Shown here one piece after another: positions 29,646 to 33,130 of a stretch of DNA of 34,805 nt. Source of the DNA: an uncultured Victivallales bacterium. Lineage in GTDB: Bacteria > Verrucomicrobiota > Lentisphaeria > Victivallales > UBA1829. The stretch is from positions 1 to 34,805 of the forward strand of contig CALXMJ010000129.1 of the NCBI GenBank assembly GCA_944389445.1. Reading direction: 5' to 3'. Position numbers and translations under genes: made by a program. The notes below the pieces were generated by a model, which was given only the letters and a program-made list of their open reading frames with translations, made no database searches and was not told the origin of the DNA. The number at the start of each line of letters is the position of its first letter. Position 1 is the stretch's first letter.

Positions 29646-31589
29646 ATGTCAAACAGTCCAGTTCTGCCGACCAAAGAACAGGCGGAATGGCTTCGTTCAG
29701 AGATCGGAGTCATCATTCATCTTGATCTTCAGGTTTTTGAAAACACCTACAACTTCCGCGATCAGTGGGGATATACTCCCAGTCCGGAGATTTTCCGTCC
29801 GACGGAACTGGATACCGATCAATGGATCTCCACTGCGGCAGAGGCCGGGGCAAAATATGCGATTCTTGTGGCGAAACACTGCAGCGGATTCTCTCTCTGG
29901 CCCACGAAAGCTCACTCGTACAGCGTTGCAAGTTCCCCGTGGCGAGACGGAAAAGGCGACATCGTGGCGGATTTCATAGCCTCCTGCCGGAAATACGGAC
30001 TCAAACCGGGCATCTATTGCAGCGCCTCCGCCAATGCGTATTTGAGAGTGGACAATCCGGGAACGGTTGTCGGGGGCTCCGCCGAGGACAACCGGAAATA
30101 CAATGAAATTGTCATTCAGCAGCTCACGGAACTCTGGAGCAATTACGGTCCTCTGTTTGAACTCTGGTTCGACGGCGGCGTCCTTCCTGTGGAAAAGGGA
30201 GGGCCTCCGGTTGCAGAACTCCAGAGAAAACTTCAGCCGAATGCCCTTGTTCTCGGAGGACCTCTAGGCTGTCCGAACCGCATCCGCAACTCAGGCGCGG
30301 AAGATGGCACCGCCGTGCTCCCCGCATGGGGAACGGTCGACTCCGTCAACCCGACCCGTTCAGGCAATCCGGACGGTGACGAATACATGCCTATTGAATG
30401 CGATCTGGCAAACCGCAACTCGGTCCGCTCCTTCCAGGGAGGATGGTTCTGGCATGAAGGGCAGGACGATGCTGTGCATCCTGCAGCAACGCTCGTGGAC
30501 CGTTACTATAAATCCGTCGGCAGGAATTCCAATTTCCTGATCGGCATGGTCATCGACAACCGCGGCCTCGTGCCCGAAACGGACCGGACGGTCTTCCGGG
30601 AATTCGGGAGCGTCATCCGCCGCATCCATCAGCTTCCCCGCGATACGGTATCCGGAACAGGCGACGTTCTCGAACTCAATCTCAAGCAGAATCATGAAGT
30701 TTCCGAAATTCTTCTGCGGGAAGACTTTACACAGGGGGAACGAGTCCGGAAATACCGGATCGAATCCTTCAGCGGATCACACTGGGAACTGGTTCTGGAG
30801 GGCGAAGGGATCGGACACAAACGTCTTTTGAATTTCCCGAAACGCCGCGCAGAAAAACTGCGGCTGACCATTCTTCACTCCGAGGGAACGCCGCTGATCG
30901 AGGAGTTTTCCGCCTATCTCCGCGCTCCTATTATTGAGCCTCCGGAGATCCGGCGCGATAAAGAGGGCGTCATCACACTTTCCGTTCAGGCGGAATCGGA
31001 AGTCCGCTACACTCTTGACGGGACTCTTCCGACTCTCGATTCCCCGCTTTACACCGGACCATTCAAAGTCGAACGGCCCGGATTCATCCGGGCGGTCACA
31101 ATTCCGCTCGCAGGATTCGATCCGGCTTTCCCGGAATTGAAAACAAATCCGGTCGCGGAGCTTCATTTCGGCATTGCCGATACCGACTGGGAAGTCCTTT
31201 CCGCCGACAGCGAATACGATGAGCAGAATCGCAAAGAAAACATTCTCCTCAACAACATCTATCCGTGGATCAGCGGGAAAACGACCGATCTGCCTCATGA
31301 ATTCATCGTTGACATGAAGCGGCCTTACGATGTCCGCGGATTCATCTACACGCCTGCGTGGCAGCCCGGACACATCCTCAAATATGAGTTCTACGTCGGT
31401 GACACACCCGACAATGTCAACACCTTTCTTGGCAGCGGTTCTTTCGGCGACATCCTGAACATGCCGGTTCAGCAGGTGGTCCGCTTTGCCCAAAGCACCA
31501 GGGCCAGATACTATCGTTTCCGGGCAACGGCAAATGCCAGCGGACGCCGTTATACATCCGTCTTCCGCATGGAGATCATCACCGATTGA
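29646..31589 (+). CDS. GH29 alpha-L-fucosidase with C-terminal sugar-binding modules
   Basis: 647 residues, AAGGAG eight bases before the ATG, no signal peptide, so probably intracellular. The catalytic barrel (about 1-340) has GH29 hallmarks: AGAKYAILVAKHCSGFSLWP near residue 70, SPWRDGKGDIVADF, and FELWFDGG with Asp176 as the expected nucleophile. GQDDAVHPAATLVDRYY and GRNSNFLIGM follow. Residues ~435-510 resemble the beta-hexosaminidase C-terminal fold (VRYTLDGTLPTLDSPLYTGP). The last ~130 are an F5/8-type (discoidin) domain. It releases alpha-linked fucose from host or algal glycans with retention. It diverges from the GntR operon that includes the GH2 enzyme, suggesting joint use of a fucosylated substrate. 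Confidence 0.88.
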   Translation: MSNSPVLPTKEQAEWLRSEIGVIIHLDLQVFENTYNFRDQWGYTPSPEIFRPTELDTDQWISTAAEAGAKYAILVAKHCSGFSLWPTKAHSYSVASSPWRDGKGDIVADFIASCRKYGLKPGIYCSASANAYLRVDNPGTVVGGSAEDNRKYNEIVIQQLTELWSNYGPLFELWFDGGVLPVEKGGPPVAELQRKLQPNALVLGGPLGCPNRIRNSGAEDGTAVLPAWGTVDSVNPTRSGNPDGDEYMPIECDLANRNSVRSFQGGWFWHEGQDDAVHPAATLVDRYYKSVGRNSNFLIGMVIDNRGLVPETDRTVFREFGSVIRRIHQLPRDTVSGTGDVLELNLKQNHEVSEILLREDFTQGERVRKYRIESFSGSHWELVLEGEGIGHKRLLNFPKRRAEKLRLTILHSEGTPLIEEFSAYLRAPIIEPPEIRRDKEGVITLSVQAESEVRYTLDGTLPTLDSPLYTGPFKVERPGFIRAVTIPLAGFDPAFPELKTNPVAELHFGIADTDWEVLSADSEYDEQNRKENILLNNIYPWISGKTTDLPHEFIVDMKRPYDVRGFIYTPAWQPGHILKYEFYVGDTPDNVNTFLGSGSFGDILNMPVQQVVRFAQSTRARYYRFRATANASGRRYTSVFRMEIITD

Positions 31590-31593
31590 GAAA

Positions 31594-31793
31594 TGCCCGA
31601 AGGGCAGGAGCCGAAGGCTCGGTGCAGGTCCGTGACCTGCTTCGGTCCAGCTGAACAAGCTGGGCGCCCAACGGGCGAAATCCCACGATTATTTTTTATA
31701 AGGAGATTTCGTGCTCCGCACGACCAGCGGCTCGCCGCTGGACCGCGACAAGGACACTGTCCTTGACCCGAGAAAAATGCTTGCGCATTTTTC
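31594..31793. repeat. array of ten different short hairpins in 200 bp, non-coding
   Basis: Ten consecutive inverted repeats, mostly perfect, with different stems, fill the gap between convergent genes. Stem length and loop are: 31594-31606 (5 bp, GAA), 31608-31620 (5 bp, GAA), 31624-31640 (7 bp, CGT), 31647-31663 (6 bp, GAACA) and 31665-31677 (5 bp, AAC). The others are 31677-31710 (6 bp plus CC/GG with one bulge, long AT loop), 31710-31722 (5 bp, TCC), 31724-31741 (7 bp, CTCG), 31749-31765 (7 bp, ACT) and 31772-31793 (9 bp, TTGC). The stems share structure but not sequence, so this is not a CRISPR or simple tandem repeat. The last hairpin, with its T-rich arm, could terminate the fucosidase transcript. 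The whole might be a structured RNA or a dispersed repeat. Confidence 0.8.
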
Positions 31794-31807
31794 CGTATAT
31801 TTTAGTT

Positions 31808-33130
31808 TTATTTTTCCGGAGACTCCATCATTCCGCCCCGTCGCGCAACGATGTAGTTGCAGATATTGTCGCCAGTGACGTTGCATGCCGTTTCGAACAT
31901 GTCCAGCAGCGGATTGATTCCGATCGCAAGCGCCACCACCATTGCCACCTGCGCATCCGGCAAACCAAGATTCGTCAGGACCAGAAAGAGGAGGAATATA
32001 CTCCCGCCCGGAATCCCTCCCGCGCCGATGGATGCCAGCACAACGGAAAAAATCAGGAATAAGATCTGAAAGATCCCGAAGGGAAGCCCGAACATATTCA
32101 CCGCAAGAACCGCAAAGACCGGCAGATGAATGCAGGCGCCGTCCATATTGACCGTCGCCCCCAGCGGCAGCGCGAAACCGGAAAGCTCCGGACGAATGCG
32201 CAGTTCCGCGGCGGTCCGGAGAGAAATCGGAAGAGTCGCCGCACTGGAACGCGTCAGAAACGCCGTAATGATCGGTTCCTTGAGCTTGTTCAGCAGACGA
32301 TACGGATTCTCCCGGCAAAGAAGCAGCACCAGGAGAGGATAAATCAGAAAGATCATCATCAGCACTCCAAGCACCACACACCCCGCAATCTGAAGATAAG
32401 GTCCGAACAGTTCCGGTCCGTACAAGGTGAAATTGACCGTGGTCAATGCAAACACCCCCACAGGGAAATATTCCATGACCCAGTCGATGATCTGATAGGA
32501 AACATGAAGCGCTGCATCCAGAATTTCCAGCAGTTTTTCCACCGCTCCGGACATCTGCTGTTTTGCTTCGTGCTTCTCAATCACAGTTCTGGCGGCGAGT
32601 CCGAACAGAATGGAAAAGACGATGATCGGCAGGAACTTTCCCTCGGCCAGCGCCTGAAACGGATTCATGAAAAGATCATTCAGAAACTGGAGAAAGGAGG
32701 GTCCGCCCGCAGCCCCCGCCTTCATATTCCCCGCCTGAGAAAGAAGCGATCCTGAAAGAGCATTCCCGTTTTCCATTGCCGGATCCATCAGATAGGCAAG
32801 TCCCGTTCCGAACGCCGCCGCAAAAACCGAGGTCAGGAAATACCAGACCACCACCATCAATCCCAGTTTCCCGAACTGTTTCAGCGGCAGACTCGCCGCC
32901 CCTGTGACAAGGGAAAAGAAAATGATCGGAATCACCACCATTTTCAGCATGGCAATCAAGACGGTTCCAAACGGAGCAAGAATCCCTGTCACGCACTCGG
33001 CGACCCCCTCTCCATATACCGCCGTCAGACGCGAACAGAGAATCCCCGCCGCGATGCCAAGTATGAATGCCGTCACAATCCGGTAAATCAGCGGCACGGC
33101 AAAATAACCCGATATCATTTTTTTCCACAT
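31808..33130 (-). CDS. dicarboxylate/amino acid:cation symporter (DAACS family)
   Basis: 440 residues with eight main hydrophobic segments plus two re-entrant hairpins. The substrate-site motifs of the GltP/DctA family are present: FLTRSSAATLPISLRT (the serine-rich hairpin 1), ATVNMDGACIHL (the NMDG motif of helix 7) and GAGGIPGG (hairpin 2). DMFETACNVTGDNI in helix 8 follows, with the conserved Asp and Asn. It imports aspartate, glutamate or C4-dicarboxylates with sodium or protons through the inner membrane; the choice of substrate cannot be fixed. A clear promoter (33171-33199) precedes it, so it is probably its own transcription unit. Its end faces the hairpin array. Confidence 0.9.
   Translation of the reverse strand: MWKKMISGYFAVPLIYRIVTAFILGIAAGILCSRLTAVYGEGVAECVTGILAPFGTVLIAMLKMVVIPIIFFSLVTGAASLPLKQFGKLGLMVVVWYFLTSVFAAAFGTGLAYLMDPAMENGNALSGSLLSQAGNMKAGAAGGPSFLQFLNDLFMNPFQALAEGKFLPIIVFSILFGLAARTVIEKHEAKQQMSGAVEKLLEILDAALHVSYQIIDWVMEYFPVGVFALTTVNFTLYGPELFGPYLQIAGCVVLGVLMMIFLIYPLLVLLLCRENPYRLLNKLKEPIITAFLTRSSAATLPISLRTAAELRIRPELSGFALPLGATVNMDGACIHLPVFAVLAVNMFGLPFGIFQILFLIFSVVLASIGAGGIPGGSIFLLFLVLTNLGLPDAQVAMVVALAIGINPLLDMFETACNVTGDNICNYIVARRGGMMESPEK

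Follow-up and report, generated by a model that had tools for sequence, protein, structure and literature searches.

The REP and BIME repeats have been proposed to hinder read-through at the 3′ ends of genes and to protect mRNA ends, and in its published definition a REP is a single palindrome of 20-40 bp that carries a GTAG/CGTC tag (PMC3733652, PMC2817692). Among structured RNAs, Acido-Lenti-1 (RF01687) has been reported from Acidobacteria and Lentisphaerae (PMC2864571). The locus considered here is a ladder of short hairpins at positions 31594-31793 of the window, meaning the whole 34,805-nucleotide stretch of DNA that was analyzed, from an uncultured Victivallales bacterium. On sequence grounds, both halves of the ladder are copies of one dispersed non-coding repeat, inverted relative to each other and meeting tail to tail, with one copy belonging to a type termed A and the other to a type termed B. 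Rather than an isolated array, the region is a pair of related copies that face in opposite directions.

The ladder shares with REP, BIME and REPIN sequences its dispersal in many copies, its extragenic and palindromic character, and stems that keep their complementarity. Its copies also lie mostly downstream of coding regions, in convergent or unidirectional gaps and often as units of opposite orientation, and they avoid divergent gaps, as expected of REP and BIME placement. Alternation of orientation likewise recalls BIMEs, since neighboring A and B copies are tail to tail in 10/12 cases; many copies are single, however. In contrast to a REP, the ladder unit, which aligns from end to end in sets of 25 and 48 copies, is ~95 bp long and holds four or five hairpins. 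Its termini are ACGG.. and ..CGAAAT in type B, with ..CGAAA as the terminus in type A; there is no GTAG/CGTC tag and no RAYT gene alongside. Its architecture is kept over the order while the stem sequences change. The ladder may work like a REP or BIME, yet it is not one by the published definition.

In the window, the ladder fills an intergenic region flanked by two convergent genes, one encoding an alpha-L-fucosidase domain with an F5/8 type C domain (29646-31589, + strand; Pfam PF01120, PF00754) and the other a sodium:dicarboxylate symporter (31808-33130, − strand; Pfam PF00375, E=6.5e-101). Ten inverted repeats are readable between positions 31594 and 31793: the A half has five, the B half has four and the remaining one spans the spacer, with 5-bp stems included in the count. 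When only perfect stems of at least 6 bp with loops of 3-6 nt are admitted, there are 6 hairpins with 42 paired steps, whereas dinucleotide shuffles of the same interval (n=1000) average 0.22 and never exceed 3, and the claim of the sequence-only reading that so many hairpins in a row do not easily arise by chance holds up. In a scan with the same strict definition, windows overlapping the ladder reach 4 and all others remain at 2 or fewer. Over 31590-31803, folding z scores are −6.4 (+ strand) and −6.1 (− strand), and none of the shuffles folds as stably. Scans for tRNAs and tandem repeats returned nothing within the window.

Copy A (31594-31683, + strand) comprises five hairpins and has related copies elsewhere in its own genome by blastn. 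Its head lies 4 nt behind the stop of the alpha-L-fucosidase-like gene. The copy opens with an extra hairpin, TGCCC-GAA-GGGCA (31594-31606), followed by hairpin 1, GAGCC-GAA-GGCTC (31608-31620), which is exchangeable, in that other hairpins occupy this position in other copies. Hairpin 2, GCAGGTC-CGT-GACCTGC (31624-31640), is joined by the linker TTCGGT to hairpin 3, CCAGCT-GAACA-AGCTGG (31647-31663), which forms the conserved core; both are supported by folding and by the strict count. Hairpin 4, CGCCC-AAC-GGGCG (31665-31677), is read from the sequence, as are the extra hairpin and hairpin 1, and is followed by AAA. The spacer between the two tails (31677-31710) contains, according to the fold, a GAAATC..GATTTC inverted repeat contributed by both tail ends, and it has another length and sequence in a sister species (L044).

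Copy B (31704-31799, − strand) comprises four hairpins, all of which are recovered both by the strict count and by the match to a covariance model, R1 (114.9 bits, E=1.6e-25), and it was aligned with 24 other copies from its own genome. Its head lies 8 nt behind the stop of the symporter gene, which ends at 31808. Read along the − strand, the order is hairpin 1, GAAAAATGC-GCAA-GCATTTTTC (31772-31793); hairpin 2, CAAGGAC-AGT-GTCCTTG (31749-31765); the linker TCGCGGT; the conserved core, hairpin 3, CCAGCG..CGCTGG (31724-31741); hairpin 4, TCGTGC-GGA-GCACGA (31709-31723); and a terminal AA.

That the two types belong together is indicated by the behavior of R1, which was built from B copies and three intermediate copies, with no type A copies, and nonetheless detects the A half of the window (31597-31683, E=1.5e-6) as well as other A copies. 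Intermediate copies such as L066 and L073 join a B-like start to an A-like end. The general unit is thus a segment of ~90-100 bp in which an exchangeable hairpin 1 precedes a hairpin 2 of ~7 bp and a linker ending in CGGT; the second half consists of the conserved hairpin 3 (CCAGC..GCTGG), an abutting hairpin 4 and then AAA. A search of the own genome and its relatives, as the initial observation had invited, revealed many such regions. With the window region as query, blastn found 36 places in the own genome including the region itself, at which the left and right halves mostly occur separately, and R1 gave 34 matches there. Consequently, the initial impression that the stems do not repeat applies within the 200 bp, where they differ from each other, but not beyond it, as they recur elsewhere in the same genome. 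R1 detected 28-48 copies in each of three other genomes of genus g1 (G001, G002, G003) and 64-68 in three genomes of genus g3, one of which (G005) has 120 at laxer settings. It found 4 copies in G020 and none in most other genera of the taxonomic family. Other families of the order contain weaker copies that keep the layout, the CGCGGT-like linker and most of hairpin 3, with quite different stems in hairpins 2 and 4. Among 288 genomes of the phylum searched with strict filters, only two marginal single matches fell outside the order.

Structured RNAs in Rfam such as Acido-Lenti-1 resemble the ladder in having a conserved secondary structure, an intergenic location and an origin in the same phylum. 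They differ in that no Rfam family (release 15) matches the window or the distant copies at gathering score, and membership in a known RNA family was rejected, the best weak matches, four in number (E 0.6-8), being at chance level. A phage origin was likewise rejected, as the core pattern has 0 matches in a viral contig collection, and the layout is missing from pattern matches in Mycobacteroides, Planctomycetales and Sedimentisphaerales (L078, L083, L065), which were attributed to chance. Literature searches in a library of open-access papers turned up no account of the ladder repeat, which is weak evidence of novelty, and the family seems to be undescribed.

Other repetitive structures accompany the ladder. 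Tandem runs of other small hairpins (e.g., ACGCGTCAGCGTGC, GTCGCGTCAGCGAC, GCGCAGCGCAAA) lie beside type A copies at L032, L033, L081, L086, L089 and L101, an arrangement in which the first hairpin looks like a module that can be exchanged. Another dispersed repeat, family C, reads GAGCCTTTGCG..CAAAGGCGTCAAAAGTTTAGGGAAAGAG.. and continues into a long, perfect hairpin with a T-run, resembling a strong intrinsic terminator. Its copies neighbor those of type B (e.g., L015, L018, L026), usually tail to tail, at L010-L029 and at further loci of g1. Ladder copies of G005 (L156, L157, L159) are interleaved with longer palindromic modules, CGCCCGGAGC..GCTCCGGGCG, which enclose hairpins of their own, and the two alternate in orientation, like mosaic elements.

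The sequence-only reading had proposed that selection acts on structure, and several comparisons bear this out. In an alignment of 48 copies, 11/28 base pairs have changed on both sides, a value reached by 0/500 shuffles, and there are 27 compensatory cells against 4.0 in shuffles. Over the order, 28/28 pairs are double-changed, with 297 compensatory cells against 77 in shuffles, although the alignment in question leans toward the model, having been fitted to it. Between orthologous B copies, differences affect 7.5% of stem positions, 5% of linker positions and 36% of loop positions, so that loops diverge approximately five times faster than stems. Stem changes without compensation, which would speak against such selection, are also present: 18/31 changed pairs in orthologous B copies involve a mismatch, and in orthologous A copies, whose hairpin 1 is sometimes unalignable, 24/28 changed pairs are uncompensated mismatches. 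By the refuting condition that the sequence-only reading set for itself, the outcome is mixed.

The pairs themselves are almost wholly Watson-Crick. On the sense strand, G-U combinations number 34 against 66 A-C combinations in the A and B copies and 25 against 13 across the order, where G-U accounts for 25/1407 cells. Thus, G-U is not favored over A-C, and the signature of an RNA folding from one strand is absent. Stems of this kind would result from a need for both strands to fold, from selection on the DNA form or from changes made by repair of quasi-palindromes. The last of these would make the ladder a mutational by-product, in which template switching perfects the arms and covariation appears without function, and the scarcity of G-U intermediates is in keeping with it, as are the many uncompensated mismatches between orthologs. 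However, repair of this kind would not account for the equal conservation of linkers outside the stems, for a third-hairpin sequence that is kept across families or for the strongly non-random placement of the copies, and we regard it as very improbable.

This placement follows the ends of genes. In genus g1, 32/58 gaps with copies are convergent as opposed to 10/74 gaps without (p=5e-7), and only 3/58 are divergent as opposed to 33/74 (p=1.4e-7), with the qualifications that genes were called with a custom codon-usage caller rather than a standard gene finder and that near-identical contigs common to bins (e.g., G002 and G003) inflate some placement counts. A location between convergent genes, initially noticed for the window alone, therefore characterizes the whole family. 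An earlier argument for strand bias, that the upstream gene is co-directional, was dropped in favor of this gap-class enrichment because convergent gaps give such a bias automatically, and distant genera were excluded from the reading of orientation since a gene caller trained on genus g1 does not work in them. Where A and B copies neighbor each other in opposite orientation, 10 pairs are tail to tail and 2 head to head; many other copies are single, and alternating arrays occur in G005. Single copies in convergent gaps have their head closer to their own stop codon in 16/23 cases, and at a distance of 1-31 nt in 14/23.

Such proximity of heads to stop codons could reflect an element of the 3′ UTR that acts solely as sense-strand RNA, stabilizing the mRNA or binding a protein, and the strong covariation and the conservation of linkers to the same degree as stems would suit an RNA of this type. 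However, such an RNA would not be expected to have stems so nearly Watson-Crick throughout, or A-C mismatches on the sense strand at a frequency equal to that of G-U. Co-directional gaps, moreover, display no strand bias (8 sense, 8 antisense), and one copy (L057) begins directly after an intrinsic terminator. A function confined to RNA consequently appears unlikely.

The ladder also occupies the position of an intrinsic, Rho-independent terminator, consisting as it does of GC-rich hairpins right after stop codons, but it differs from one in having several hairpins in a row. On the strand of its own gene, neither window copy is directly followed by a U-run, and a terminator scan of the window ladder matches only hairpin 1 of copy B as it reads along the + strand (9 pairs, of which 3 are G-C), where shuffles average 0.7 sites. 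The window ladder is thus not a canonical intrinsic terminator. Elsewhere in the window, two large hairpins lie back to back at 1893-1990 (folding z −4.5), where convergent genes end at 1893 (+ strand) and 1971 (− strand); these are likely ordinary terminators, contrasting with the ladder. Intrinsic terminators are rarer at gene ends that have a head-on copy (6/41 versus 39/119, p=0.028), in a scan that used a strict T-run because the family C hairpin would otherwise have been counted, although this deficit is weak and is not significant for convergent gaps alone (p=0.17).

Comparison of related genomes reveals both inheritance and turnover. G002 has the A/B pair of the window at the orthologous locus (L044), and in G003 copy A likewise occurs there, where a contig ends (L076). 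The pair is also carried by L085, on a contig binned in G001, but much of this contig is 97% identical to a contig of G003 (L048). At other orthologous places, sister species have no ladder, and the gene end at which B is lacking bears another hairpin or a copy of repeat C. Copies have been gained and lost between sister species, and so no single copy is indispensable; in one case (L015 versus L052), copy number was altered by tandem duplication. As a separate matter, kilobase-long stretches are shared at 97-99.9% identity by some contigs assigned to the bins of different species (L062/L072, L069/L095 and L086/L103, G003 and G002; L048/L085, G003 and G001), while other orthologous genes differ by 15-25%, which points to either cross-binning or recent transfer.

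A form with the attributes of a mobile element exists in genus g3, where each genome has 43-52 copies of a 152-bp unit built around a central A-type core. Many of these copies are 99-100% identical, with sharp ends and head-to-tail abutment (e.g., L145-L160 in G005), and many contigs of the assemblies that contain the unit end in it. Miniature elements derived from IS200/IS605, which are palindrome-associated and PATE-like, are similar to this unit in that it has hairpins near both sharp ends, inserts next to TT(T/C)ATT and abuts head to tail, with the ladder core inside; they differ from the window copies, which do not have such ends. Pairing between a guide and a target occurs in IS200/IS605 elements. 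In the 152-bp unit, the left flank (TTTATT or TTCATT) changes jointly with an internal motif (GGTTAATACC or GGTTGATACC), a co-change that resembles such pairing, although there are two variants only, which could also represent two lineages. Two diverged full units occur in the own genome (L213 and L214; G000 C11 2344-2491 and C36 14151-14295).

Matches to the Y1_Tnp transposase were obtained in 11/17 genomes tested, and no ladder lies within ~1.5 kb of a Y1_Tnp gene among those examined; the RAYT/REPtron arrangement was rejected as a candidate for this reason. Fragmentary or stop-interrupted Y1 (IS200-type) transposase genes at L040 (G000 C293 127-300) and at L173 and L177 (G005 C35) have no ladder nearby. 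No intact partner transposase was found. Several ladder-rich genomes have only broken Y1 genes or none, and in the incomplete assemblies of G002, G003 and G025 numerous ladders go together with an absence of Y1 matches.

These observations bear on the main rival to a function at gene ends, namely that the ladder is selfish DNA tolerated there. A non-autonomous transposable element would then have the ladder as its core, and a transposase of the IS200/IS605 type (Y1) would act on it in single-stranded form, with stems kept for transposition and a placement at 3′ ends that reflects no more than where insertions are least harmful. The abundance, near-identity, sharp ends, abutment and co-changing left flank of the g3 unit all argue for such an origin, as do its two diverged relatives in the own genome, the presence/absence differences between sister species and the lack of preference for G-U pairs. 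By contrast, copies of the window type do not have the ends of the mobile unit and are in many cases orthologous between species, no target-site duplication or clean empty site was seen in comparisons within genus g1, the flank co-change involves just two variants, and ladders and Y1 genes do not coincide. We therefore consider selfish DNA a possibility to be taken seriously, but one that is on the whole improbable. The early suggestion of a palindrome-rich mobile element is accordingly only half borne out: the family shows turnover and includes the mobile unit, whereas the pair in the window has been inherited in place.

Overall, we lean, with modest confidence, toward the ladder being a REP/BIME-like dispersed repeat that acts as a two-sided 3′-end structure. 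Such two-sided action is proposed because both strands can fold into the same ladder. In either direction, the structure would hinder read-through from the convergent gene and could shield mRNA 3′ ends from 3′-5′ decay, and it would fill the slot at which other genes have an ordinary terminator hairpin. Spread would occur through local duplication and the mobile derivative, with many copies being inherited where they stand. A broader proposal, which we advance quite tentatively and think doubtful as a whole, is that the Victivallales possess an order-wide class of multi-hairpin, two-sided gene-end modules, derived from or domesticated in a mobile element, active on both strands and replacing intrinsic terminators between convergent genes. 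The stems would then be confined to Watson-Crick pairs because the modules work on both strands.

With the ladder, the Lentisphaerota lineage gains a family of extragenic palindromic repeats that has apparently gone undescribed, one in which a fixed multi-hairpin layout is kept over an order while the stem sequences are swapped, and which has an apparent mobile derivative. The family offers, in one system, a means of addressing the old question of whether REP-like repeats are selfish DNA or are kept for ending and protecting transcripts, and its nearly Watson-Crick-only covariation provides a way to tell a function that involves two strands from one that involves RNA only.
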